Of a stretch of DNA of 64,000 bases, positions 2,575 through 10,056 are shown piece by piece (position 1 is the stretch's first letter; every line of letters starts with the position of its first letter). The notes below the pieces were generated by a model. That model did no database searches. It saw only the letters and a list, made by a program, of their open reading frames with translations, and was not told the origin of the DNA. The translations under genes were made by a program, and so were the position numbers. Source of the stretch: Lacibacter sp. H375 (lineage in GTDB: Bacteria; Bacteroidota; Bacteroidia; Chitinophagales; Chitinophagaceae); contig NZ_JBBKTT010000001.1 in assembly GCF_037892425.1 (NCBI RefSeq), positions 310,001-374,000 of the forward strand. Direction: 5' to 3'.

Positions 2575-2584
2575 GGTTTTGCCG

Positions 2585-3673
2585 ATGCATAAAATTATTC
2601 TTTCTCTCCTATTCATCTCTTGTTCCGTGTTGTCATTTGCACAGAAGGATTCTGTTGTTAATGGGCTTGCAACCGATACAACGGTCGAAAACAAGCAAGG
2701 CGATGTATCAAAATACGGATTCCAGGCGCTTTTTGTAAATAAAGAATTTAATTCTTCTACATCTTACGATGCACAGATCCATCCGCAGGCATGGGGGTTT
2801 ATACAGGATTACCTTGATCGTTATGGAAAGAACCTGCAGAAAATGAAAGGTTGGGGCATGCCCTATTTTACCTTGATCGATAATGTGCTTACACAATATG
2901 GTTTGCCACATGAATTAAAGTATCTCGCCGTGATTGAAAGCGGATTGAACACCAATGCCACAAGTTGGGTTGGTGCCCGTGGCCCCTGGCAGTTTATGCC
3001 TTACACTGCTAAAGAATATGGACTGAATGTGAATGGCTGGATCGATGAACGCACTGATTATTTCCGCAGCACACATGCAGCAGCAAAATATCTCACCTCA
3101 CTTTATAATGATCTTGATGATTGGTTGTTGGTGATTGCTGCTTATAACGGCGGGCCCGGACGTGTTTATAGTGCGATCAAGAAAAGTGGAAGTCGTGATT
3201 TCTGGAAGTTGCAATATTATCTCCCGACAGAAAGTCGTATGCATGTAAAGAAATTTATTGCCACGCATTATATCATGGAAGGCAAAGGCGGCATCACAAC
3301 GATGGTGAATGATGGCAAGCAACCTGCAACAATTGAATTTGCACCGGAAAAAACAGATCCCAATATTGCTGTGGAGCCGATCGTTGGTAAATTCAGTTCG
3401 GTGGTGATGGCGAAAAATCTTATGATTGATCTTATATACTTCAATCAACTGAATCCAAATTTTGATGCGGTGCTTGCAGGCAATACTATTTTCAATCTTC
3501 GTTTGCCGAAAGATAAAATGCAGGCGTTTAATGCCAACCGTTATGCCATTCTCAATGAAAGCGTACAATTGCTGATGCGTTTTTACGGTGAAGATGGCAT
3601 GAAAGATATGTATCCCAAAGTATCTGATCTGCCGGAGGTGAAGAAGAAACCGGTACCCAAGAAAAAAGGTTGA
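2585..3673 (+). CDS. Lytic transglycosylase, MltD-like (SLT domain)
   Basis: This predicted periplasmic muramidase cleaves peptidoglycan with formation of 1,6-anhydro-muropeptides. It begins with a signal peptide (MHKIILSLLFISCSVLSFAQ), so it should be exported. The SLT domain spans roughly residues 90-220: the catalytic glutamate lies in YLAVIESGLN, followed by GARGPWQFMPYTAKEYG and AAYNGGPGRV, the three hallmark SLT motifs. A C-terminal stretch around residues 255-315 resembles a degenerate LysM-type region, and the tail is lysine/proline rich. I chose the ATG at 2585 over an in-frame TTG at 2579 because it gives a clean signal peptide. It directly follows gatA. The family is secure; the exact Mlt subclass is not. 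Confidence 0.9.
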   Translation: MHKIILSLLFISCSVLSFAQKDSVVNGLATDTTVENKQGDVSKYGFQALFVNKEFNSSTSYDAQIHPQAWGFIQDYLDRYGKNLQKMKGWGMPYFTLIDNVLTQYGLPHELKYLAVIESGLNTNATSWVGARGPWQFMPYTAKEYGLNVNGWIDERTDYFRSTHAAAKYLTSLYNDLDDWLLVIAAYNGGPGRVYSAIKKSGSRDFWKLQYYLPTESRMHVKKFIATHYIMEGKGGITTMVNDGKQPATIEFAPEKTDPNIAVEPIVGKFSSVVMAKNLMIDLIYFNQLNPNFDAVLAGNTIFNLRLPKDKMQAFNANRYAILNESVQLLMRFYGEDGMKDMYPKVSDLPEVKKKPVPKKKG

Positions 3674-3700
3674 AACGTTTCTGATTATTTTATTGTACAC

Positions 3701-3925
3701 TTCAAATAAGCATCTGCACACTGAAATTACGGCACTGCAACATGCATTTAAGACAGCGTAACTTCCGATTTTTTTATTGTACACTTCAATTAAGCATCTG
3801 TACCTGTTCATTAAGTTACTGCACAATGCTATTAAGGCACTGTAACATGTAATTAAGACAGTGTAACCATAATTAATTTACTGTAACGATCGATTTATGC
3901 GGTGTAACTCCTGTTTAAGTTGTTG
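3701..3925. repeat. 21-bp-period tandem repeat array, about 10-11 degenerate units
   Basis: A noncoding array follows the transglycosylase gene. Its units share the core ATTAAGnnACTGTAAC plus a variable connector. The G ending the TTAAG core (or its variant) falls at 3710, 3731, 3752, 3794, 3815, 3836 and 3857, and matching positions at 3878, 3899 and 3919, that is every 21 bp with a shift of one base near the end. The unit around 3773 is too degenerate to read but the phase is kept across it. There are no spacers, so this is not CRISPR. With the hairpin at 3949-3987 it fills the 349-bp gap between the + strand transglycosylase and the - strand SUKH gene. Confidence 0.85.
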
Positions 3926-3948
3926 AAGTACATGGAAAAATGTTTTAT

Positions 3949-3987
3949 GTGGTTGGTCGGGAGACACAACCACGGCGTGTTTTTTTT
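3949..3987. terminator. Strong hairpin, possible bidirectional terminator or REP-like element
   Basis: GTGGTTGGTC (3949-3958) pairs with GACACAACCAC (3963-3973) as a 10-bp stem with one bulged A and a GGGA loop. On the + strand it is followed, after GGCGTG, by eight T residues. It separates two convergent genes and could terminate either; the distance from stem to T tract is longer than in a classical terminator. Confidence 0.5.
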
Positions 3988-4022
3988 CGATTCAACCAAA
4001 ATGAGCAAAGAACTCGCCTTTG

Positions 4023-4604
4023 TCAATTTATTTTCCAATACTCTGAGTTTGGGTTGAGTGCTGAACTTATTAATTTTTCCTTTTCAACATCAAACTCAAT
4101 ACCTCCTGTATTTGAAAAGTAATACGCTTTCTCCTTGTAGCACTGGTAAATTGTATTAACAAATGTGTTTAGTGAATCATACATTGTTATGATAATATCA
4201 AAATCAATATTGCCTATTGAATGATGATATATCATACCATAGTTTACTGAAGATTTTTTACAGTCAATCAAATAAAATTCACCGCCTCCACTTGCGAATA
4301 ATGGGAACATTCCTTCATCCCACTTAGGCAGATTGTTAACCCCTTCTTTGTAATAGGTAAGAGCTTGTTCAATTGGTAGAAAAACTCCAAAATTGTATAA
4401 CCACAATTTATTTAGACTAATATCCTCTGTAATCTTTGTACCGTTCCGCCATCTATAAAGGAGTTTTACCTCGTTGGGTAGTTGTTCCAGAATACTGTCT
4501 TCAGCAAATAATTCAGTTCCTTCTTGTAAATAGTTTAAAATCGGAGCCTTAATTTCATCTAAGTAATTCTCCAATTGCAAAAGTAATTCTTCAAAATTTT
4601 TCAT
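4023..4604 (-). CDS. SMI1/KNR4 (SUKH) family protein
   Basis: The 193-residue product resembles the SUKH superfamily: an N-terminal helical segment, then LPNEVKLLYRWRNGT near residues 42-56, and the central PLFASGGGEFYLID strand region, the usual markers of SMI1/KNR4 domains. In bacteria such proteins are mostly immunity proteins against contact-dependent or polymorphic toxins, but some are unrelated to toxins. I see no toxin gene beside it: neighbours are pabB (47 nt upstream on the same strand) and a repeat array. I chose the ATG at 4604; an upstream in-frame start at 4649 would overlap the pabB region needlessly. The gene is visibly AT-richer than pabB, which may indicate acquisition. The function is inferred from the domain only. 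Confidence 0.65.
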   Translation of the reverse strand: MKNFEELLLQLENYLDEIKAPILNYLQEGTELFAEDSILEQLPNEVKLLYRWRNGTKITEDISLNKLWLYNFGVFLPIEQALTYYKEGVNNLPKWDEGMFPLFASGGGEFYLIDCKKSSVNYGMIYHHSIGNIDFDIIITMYDSLNTFVNTIYQCYKEKAYYFSNTGGIEFDVEKEKLISSALNPNSEYWKIN

Positions 4605-4650
4605 TTGTTGTTTTGGTCTATTATTGATACCGAACAATGTACAACCCAAC

Positions 4651-7815: not shown

Positions 7816-10056
7816 TTATTGCTCGGTATCGTAACGCTCAACTTTCTGAATGCCCGTTAGTTTATGCAGCCGTGAGACAAGTTCGTCGAGTTCATCTTTA
7901 TCGTGTACAAATATTTTGATGTTGCCTTGAAACACACCTTCTTTTGCTTCGATAGTAATGGCGCTGATGTTAAGACGCATTTCACCACTGATAAGATTGG
8001 TGATCTTGCTCACCACGCCCACATCATCAACCCCAATGATCTTGATACCGGTGAGGAAAGAGATTTCTTTGTTCTTTGCCCATTTTGTTTTAACCACACG
8101 GTGACCAAAATTTGCAAGCAATCTTGATGCGTTGGGACAAGTGGTGCGGTGTATGATCAAGCCTTTACCTGTTGATACAAACCCGAACACGTCATCACCC
8201 GGAATGGGTTTGCAACAATTGGCTAATGTATAAACGATCCTGTCGCTGCTTTCGCCAAAAATGATGAGTTCAGAATCTTTGTGTGATCCTGTACGGTTAG
8301 GATCATATTCCGGCTTGGGTTCCATGACGGGCTTCACCGGTTTCGGGAGTTCCAGTTTATCGCCATGAATATGCAGCTCTTTTATTTCCTTGAGATCAAT
8401 GGCCTTGGTAGCAATTTTATAAAAGAGTTCAAGTTGTGAAGGCAGTTTATAAAACAATGTGAGCGTTTCTACATTGTTCACATCAAAACTGGCACCCATT
8501 TGTTCCAGTTTGCGTTGCAGCACATACTTTCCTTCATCGGCCACTTTACGTTTTTCTTCTTTCAGGGCATCTTTGATCTTGCTTTTTGCTTTTGCCGTTA
8601 CAACAAAGTTCAACCAGTCTTCACTGGGTTTTTGTTTGCTGCTGGTGATGATCTCGATCTGGTCGCCACTACGCAATTTATGCGCAATAGGTACCAGCTT
8701 ATGATTCACTTTTGCACCAATACATCGGCTGCCCACATCACTATGCACACTAAATGCAAAGTCTAAAGCAGTTGCACCAACAGGAAGCATTTTTACATCA
8801 CCCTTTGGTGTGTACACATAAATTTCTTCTGCAAGAAAAGAACTTTTAAAATCCTGCAGAAAATCAAGTGAACTGCTATCCTGGTTACTTAATGCTTCAC
8901 GAATATTATGGAACCATTTATCAAACCTGTCTTCATCGCCACTACCCTCTTTGTATTTCCAGTGAGCAGCCAAACCTTTCTCCGCAATTTCATTCATACG
9001 CTTGGTACGTATCTGCACTTCCACCCATTTACCTTGTGGCCCCATTACTGTTGTATGCAAGGCCTCATAACCATTGCTTTTGGGATTACTCAACCAGTCA
9101 CGTAAACGTTCTGGTGATGGTGTGTACATATCTGTAACAATGGAATAAGCTTTCCAGCAATCTTCTTTCTCCCGTTCACTTGGTGAATCGATGATGATAC
9201 GAATAGCAAACAAATCATACACTTCTTCAAAACTCACGCCCTTCTTTTTGATCTTGTTGGAAATGGAGTGGATGGATTTTGGCCGGCCATATAATTCATA
9301 ATTTGTAAATCCGGCACGCTCTAATTTTTCCTTGATGGGTTTTACAAACTCGTTGATATACCTGCTGCGTTCCCGTTTTGTTTCTGACAATTTGCGGGCA
9401 ATTTCTTTGTACACATCCGGCTCCAGGTATTTCATGGAAAGATCTTCCATCTCCGTTTTGATATTATACAAACCAAGACGATGAGCTAATGGTGCATACA
9501 CATAAACCGTTTCGCTGGAGATTTTTAATTGCTTCTCACGCTTCATACTATCCAGCGTACGCATATTGTGCAAGCGATCGGCCAGTTTAATCAGGATCAC
9601 TCTCGGGTCATCCGTAAGCGTAAGTAATATTTTCTTGAAATTCTCTGCCTGCTGTGTTGAGTTGGCATCAACCACCGTTGATATCTTGGTAAGTCCATCA
9701 ATGATGCGTGCAATTTCATTTCCAAATTCACGGGCCACGTCTTCGAGTGTAACATCGGTATCTTCCACGGTATCATGCAACAAAGCACAAATCGTTGATC
9801 GCACCCCAAGTCCGATCTCTTCCACACAAATTTGGGCTACAGCCAACGGATGTAATATATAAGGCTCCCCGCTTTTCCTGCGCATGGTCTTGTGGGCATC
9901 AGCCGCCATCTCAAAGGCAGTACGCACCAGTTCCTTATCGCCTTTTTTGAGTTTAGTCTTGAGCGAACGTAACAAACTACGGTAGTGACGAAGGATTTCC
10001 TTTTTCTCCTGATCGGGGGTAAGGGTATAGGCCGGTATAGTTGAAATTGTTTCCAG
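7816..10056 (-). CDS. Bifunctional (p)ppGpp synthetase/hydrolase, RelA/SpoT family
   Basis: The long Rsh enzyme makes and degrades (p)ppGpp. Domains in order are: hydrolase HD domain with intact LLHDTVEDT; synthetase with YGRPKSIHS, VYDLFAIRI and WVEVQIRTKRMNEIAEKG; TGS domain starting EEIYVYTPKGDVKMLP; a zinc-finger/CC region with CCKPIPGDDVFGF; and a C-terminal ACT domain. Both active sites look functional. The start is odd. The first conventional start in frame is TTG at 9975, but conserved N-terminal residues EKKEILRHYRSLLR are encoded upstream of it. No ATG, GTG or TTG exists on this strand between 9976 and about 10136. I place the start at CTG 10056 (746 residues, the usual family length). 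TTG at 9975 gives 719 residues. Confidence 0.93.
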   Translation of the reverse strand: METISTIPAYTLTPDQEKKEILRHYRSLLRSLKTKLKKGDKELVRTAFEMAADAHKTMRRKSGEPYILHPLAVAQICVEEIGLGVRSTICALLHDTVEDTDVTLEDVAREFGNEIARIIDGLTKISTVVDANSTQQAENFKKILLTLTDDPRVILIKLADRLHNMRTLDSMKREKQLKISSETVYVYAPLAHRLGLYNIKTEMEDLSMKYLEPDVYKEIARKLSETKRERSRYINEFVKPIKEKLERAGFTNYELYGRPKSIHSISNKIKKKGVSFEEVYDLFAIRIIIDSPSEREKEDCWKAYSIVTDMYTPSPERLRDWLSNPKSNGYEALHTTVMGPQGKWVEVQIRTKRMNEIAEKGLAAHWKYKEGSGDEDRFDKWFHNIREALSNQDSSSLDFLQDFKSSFLAEEIYVYTPKGDVKMLPVGATALDFAFSVHSDVGSRCIGAKVNHKLVPIAHKLRSGDQIEIITSSKQKPSEDWLNFVVTAKAKSKIKDALKEEKRKVADEGKYVLQRKLEQMGASFDVNNVETLTLFYKLPSQLELFYKIATKAIDLKEIKELHIHGDKLELPKPVKPVMEPKPEYDPNRTGSHKDSELIIFGESSDRIVYTLANCCKPIPGDDVFGFVSTGKGLIIHRTTCPNASRLLANFGHRVVKTKWAKNKEISFLTGIKIIGVDDVGVVSKITNLISGEMRLNISAITIEAKEGVFQGNIKIFVHDKDELDELVSRLHKLTGIQKVERYDTEQ

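Follow-up and report, generated by a model that had tools for sequence, protein, structure and literature searches.

What a long run of degenerate 21-bp repeats does in a gap between two bacterial genes is the question raised by this locus of Lacibacter sp. H375. The array was examined within a stretch of 64,000 nucleotides (the window). The first-pass annotation had counted 10 to 11 units; the array and its core, ATTAAGnnACTGTAAC, were as described, and the count rose slightly, to 12 class 1 units on a 21-bp grid on the forward strand (positions 3679–3930), as judged from the grid, autocorrelation and relatives in the genus. Self-identity at lag 21 was 0.52 over 200 bp versus a window mean of 0.28 (SD 0.04), and 21 was the top-scoring period among all periods from 10 to 119 in the window, so the possibility that the phasing might not exceed chance falls away. 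TRF called the tract as an 84-bp (4 × 21) plus an approximately 20-bp repeat. The phase, described earlier as unbroken, is exact over most units and slips once, by a single 20-bp step at 3867–3868 (ATTAAG at 3852 to ATTAAT at 3872). This 1-bp deletion offsets the last three units by −1, leaves the remainder in exact 21-bp register and is not found in the orthologue of the sister species. Two doublets of units termed D1 and D2 lie on the forward strand, the first (CTGAAATTACGGCACTGCAAC ATGCATTTAAGACAGCGTAAC) at 3721–3762 and the second (ATGCTATTAAGGCACTGTAAC ATGTAATTAAGACAGTGTAAC) at 3826–3867, their starts 105 bp apart; the terminal unit, TCCTGTTTAAGTTGTTGAAGT (3909–3929, forward strand), resembles ACACGGTTTAAGTGGTTGAAA, the fixed last unit of the relatives. 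In 464 kb of this 5.08 Mb genome (the window plus 20 spaced 20-kb samples) scanned for period 21, the window copy was the sole non-coding degenerate 21-bp array. The remaining signals were a gene with coding heptads (DRREDVR), a 7-bp microsatellite and a GC-rich low-complexity stretch. The heptad gene (L294, 4879–5271) encodes a secreted-looking protein and is a useful control for period-21 scans.

The array lies between a gene on the forward strand at 2579–3673, found in the ORF list and in 80 relatives, which we take from its sequence to be an MltD-like lytic transglycosylase gene, and a SMI1/KNR4 (SUKH-1) family gene on the reverse strand at 4023–4604 (PF09346, E = 1e-10). These genes are convergent, as the first-pass annotation had stated. 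Between the array and the SUKH gene, a terminator-like hairpin (GTGGTTG...CAACCAC) and the T run after it occupy 3949–3987 on the forward strand. In L. luteus (locus L037), mltD directly abuts a convergent pabB, indicating that the array, the hairpin and the SUKH gene together form an insertion (3674–4650) relative to that species. None of the 80 other mltD loci carried an array above threshold. In the sister species (G003), several other genes occupy the mltD gap where the window has the SUKH gene. A GAGACAC hairpin of the GGTTCGTGAGACACGAACC type adjoins several class 1 arrays (window 3949–3987; L175 at 7754 and 10321; L177 at 9574; L174 at 9436; L159 at 8414); we considered whether it was a high-copy repeat and rejected this, as just two matches occurred in the window genome.

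A BLAST search of the window tract against 14 genomes of the genus, with the window genome as G000, detected an orthologous array behind mltD in G003 (80% identity, E = 1e-59) and further arrays in G003, G005 and G001. The tract is thus not without copies in its genus, the outcome on which the first-pass annotation would have let its reading fall. With a sequence profile built from four units (R1), five class 1 and three class 2 arrays were found in G005, one class 1 and four class 2 arrays in G004, one variant array in G009, and distant arrays in G058, G061 and G147, which belong to two other genera. In a PWM scan, the arrays scored 86–113 bits per five units and all shuffled controls fell below −32, a separation to be read with the caveat that the matrix was trained on those very arrays, including that of the window. 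The relatives are scattered over many unrelated chromosomal sites, which lends no support to the suggested nucleoid or terminus signal. Nor is the convergent setting general: several relatives have flanking genes that point the same way, and home copies, described below, lie upstream of a linked gene. Several dispersed arrays between convergent genes lie where there is no promoter. All 14 dispersed arrays were located 3' of a co-oriented gene (11 independent, p = 0.001), and several of them come just after a terminator. At L159, a truncated second copy of the 3' half of an array with a conserved tail (8424–8600) follows the full array, with a hairpin between them, which suggests that the spreading unit is the array plus a tail of about 100 bp. 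Defence-like genes also adjoin arrays (L174, 9733–11597; L159, 8741–11863; L176, 3376–5744); these are a Septu-like pair of HNH and AAA ATPase genes, a methylase-specificity fusion and HNH endonucleases.

Comparison of the genes flanking 21 arrays revealed that one family adjoins seven of them, in seven genomes and more than one genus, its start lying approximately 90–190 bp from the array. To measure this pairing, we took 63 homologous gene loci and, regardless of unit sequence, scored tandem periods over the 900 bp preceding each gene. A strong periodic array was present upstream of 50 of the 63, and the best period was exactly 21 in 49; at the fiftieth (L233), a 16-bp repeat outranks the 21-bp array. 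Random 900-bp windows gave period 21 in 7 of 952, and loci matching through the C-terminal domain only had a period-21 array in 0 of 19. Four further loci carry a 21-bp array downstream of the gene, a placement seen in the divergent paralogues at L216, L220, L221 and L222. Eight loci had no nearby array that passed the threshold. Fisher's test gave p of about 1e-62, a value that overstates the evidence because the loci are related and not independent. The paired loci represent about twenty genera and at least six families. In the home form, the array typically ends approximately 70–240 bp upstream of the gene. In G005 and G004, every extra paralogue is preceded by a separate 21-bp array with a distinct unit sequence. 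Where the core could be read, the array points away from the linked gene by 10 to 1, and its orientation differs at G004-C30. An array with a 22-bp period (CACGTCTCTAC type) lies downstream of one homologue (L232, 1301–1500).

The linked protein has an N-terminal domain of approximately 215 residues that is predicted with high confidence to be all-helical (mean pLDDT 89–93) and is cytosolic-looking; many members also have a C-terminal CarboxypepD_reg domain (PF13620). The helical domain had no recurrent match across members in Pfam, PHROGs or NCBIfam, and on its own it gave no significant match in Foldseek; full-model fold matches came through the C-terminal transthyretin-like domain alone. 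The best VIA-align row for the helical domain was 2rld (Z 8.6, rmsd 3.0, 94 aligned), which we rejected as a fold relative, the score being within the chance range for helical bundles. Its pI ranged from 4.7 to 9.9 (median 7.7) and thus was not consistently basic. Of 246 genomes of the taxonomic family, 57 gave homologues, some via the C-terminal domain only, and helical-domain homologues also occur in further Bacteroidota families. Among the homologue loci compared, the linked gene had no conserved neighbour gene. A phage or plasmid origin was considered and rejected: tblastn with the linked protein returned no match in 72,556 plasmids or in the phage collection, and several of the loci lie on chromosome-scale contigs.

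Within Lacibacter, the helical domain was detected in G001, G003, G004 (three copies), G005 (two copies) and G009, which are all the array-bearing genomes except that of the window. Array and gene were both present in five genomes, the array only in one and neither in eight (p = 0.003); the gene-free genomes were scanned with R1, so this tally is to be read knowing that arrays of classes unlike R1 could escape. A search of the window genome for the N-terminal helical domain found no copy above chance. Because this genome has the array without the linked gene, the window array is an orphan, and it is probably a decaying remnant whose linked gene is gone.

The units change in an ordered manner. 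Class 1 and class 2 arrays have a common plan, a D1-D2 doublet every 105 bp (once 126 bp) and a fixed last unit. The doublet occurs in every class 1 array; in arrays with two scoring copies, these are 105 or 126 bp apart. The D unit can be written [CA]TGYMAT-NNNN-KCAGTGTAMR and is kept across several classes and genera, the NNNN letters being TAAG/TTAG, CCAG, AAAG, TGAT or TTCT/TGCT according to class. These letters are largely common to the units of one array and change together in most of them. In two orthologous pairs of dispersed arrays from gene-bearing genomes, the core positions (6–9 and 15–18) differed less than the others (31/264 versus 103/429, p = 7e-5), and each alignment had 21 gap columns inside the array, by eye a single whole-unit gap; indel counts from consensus alignments were too noisy and were not used. 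The contrast between core and rest was absent from the orthologous pair of the window genome and G003 (13/72 versus 21/117), which is consistent with relaxed constraint where the linked gene is missing. Between most genomes the unit sequences are unrelated, and no motif was common to the whole family, in which a weak excess of TGACA/TTACA was the only signal and is not relied on here. The array in the window matched no Rfam family, dyad symmetry of the unit was not above permutation (a dyad-symmetric operator was therefore rejected), and the contiguous degenerate 21-bp units have no spacers and so do not form a CRISPR array.

The pairing of a helical-protein gene with an exactly 21-bp array, the dispersal of such arrays and the orphan copy in the window are direct observations. 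They apparently define an undescribed two-part element of Bacteroidota, and we found no description of the array-gene system in the open-access literature. The phased protein binding proposed in the first-pass annotation is the best fit and now has a concrete candidate in a gene linked to 21-bp arrays across the phylum, although the binding itself is hypothetical. We propose, with a probability of roughly 45%, that the linked protein recognizes the arrays as phased tracts of many units and that the array in the window is a dispersed copy left without its gene. The linked protein, or a complex containing it, would read each 21-bp unit. A 21-bp unit spans two turns of B-DNA, so all units look out from one side of the helix; there they could seed a cooperative assembly of protein and DNA, which may control the linked gene itself and mark the dispersed sites. 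As the recognized core shifts over time, the units would shift along with it. We infer unit-by-unit recognition from the fixed two-turn period, the separate units of each paralogue, the parallel change of the core letters and the position-specific constraint; the parallel change could result partly from concerted evolution. A broader proposal, which we put forward tentatively and consider somewhat doubtful, is that the element is a bacterial counterpart, spread across the phylum, of satellite DNA that coevolves with its reader protein; each paralogue would own a phased array, the recognition letters would switch as the protein changes, and the dispersed arrays would be sites for the same protein. 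Recognition by the linked protein gives no account of the invariable placement of the dispersed arrays 3' of co-oriented genes. If correct, the proposal would reveal a protein-DNA system that is widespread in Bacteroidota yet overlooked by sequence annotation, since arrays of most genomes have no sequence in common and the helical domain has no recurrent database match. It would also provide a natural series of protein/target pairs for studying evolving DNA recognition and account for a class of 'degenerate intergenic repeats'.

The variable charge of the protein, the absence of a match to a DNA-binding fold and the orphan arrays leave room for neutral or RNA-level readings. A neutral or selfish satellite could originate in an upstream region that tolerates it, through slippage and unequal crossing-over, and could spread by hitchhiking, its period being historical and without function. 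The 105-bp higher-order structure is typical of satellite turnover, the units are wholly different between most genomes, orthologous arrays align with gaps of whole units, and the window array outlives its linked gene. However, one gene family is preceded by the same 21-bp period in at least six taxonomic families despite unrelated units, and D units are kept across classes and genera while the core alone changes; we regard this explanation as unlikely. The plain ancient slippage tract of the first-pass annotation likewise leaves the link to one gene family and the recurrent homologous higher-order architecture unexplained. Seven codons per unit might instead suggest a coding repeat, given that 21 is divisible by 3 and that an open frame is present in some arrays (e.g., window 3098–3826, reverse strand). 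This was rejected by open-frame statistics and is extremely improbable: open frames numbered 31 of 48, close to the 23.9 expected by permutation, the strands were even (24 to 24), and the frames differed between arrays.

By analogy with type III toxin-antitoxin systems, the array transcript might be a repeat RNA that binds or neutralizes the linked protein. An antitoxin alone is harmless, so orphan arrays would be tolerated; arrays without a gene do occur, and genes without an array are in the minority. The 10 to 1 orientation away from the gene is that of a divergent transcript, although G004-C30 differs, and the 14 of 14 placement would also fit. On the other hand, there was no RNA structure signal on either strand (mean MFE z of about −0.5), one would not expect an RNA to hold strictly to a period of two DNA turns, and the scanned proteins have no toxin or RNase domain, making this reading quite improbable. 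A little less probable still is an operator array for a host transcription factor (e.g., a LytTR-type regulator) with the helical protein as a mere regulated target. The upstream position and 21-bp spacing fit phased operators, and the lack of a DNA-binding fold match in the helical protein is also in favour. It would be surprising, however, for a host factor to follow one gene family while the unit differs from paralogue to paralogue, and the promoterless arrays between convergent genes also speak against this reading.

The arrays and their linked gene can also be compared with known systems. Like plasmid iterons with a rep gene, the arrays precede a gene and consist of direct repeats of about 21 bp with two-turn phasing; unlike iterons, they are chromosomal, multi-copy and dispersed, the linked protein matched no replication-initiator family in Pfam or NCBIfam, and the tblastn search places the linked-gene loci in no plasmid or phage replicon of those collections. 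Type III (ToxIN-like) systems also have a tandem array upstream of a gene, and that array may outlast the gene. Their repeats are approximately 35–47 nt, structured and co-transcribed, whereas the arrays here are unstructured, strictly 21 bp and mostly divergent, and the protein is all-helical in the model, with no ToxN/AbiQ endoribonuclease match in Pfam among five linked proteins scanned. Centromere-like or ParB/ParR clusters resemble the arrays in having many phased, fast-evolving sites for one linked protein (here, putative binding) but differ in that our loci have no ParA/ParM partner or conserved neighbour and several arrays per chromosome. LytTR operators are direct repeats two helical turns apart as well, but usually comprise two copies at a promoter, and the linked protein has no LytTR domain in Pfam. 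REP elements with RAYT transposases are likewise dispersed intergenic repeats, and a Y1_Tnp gene lies 3' of 2 of the 21 arrays, but the arrays are long, non-palindromic and mostly without such a gene nearby. The two Y1_Tnp genes (IS200-like, RAYT-like) are directly 3' of arrays in two genera, at L165 (7323–7868) and L172 (7535–8077).
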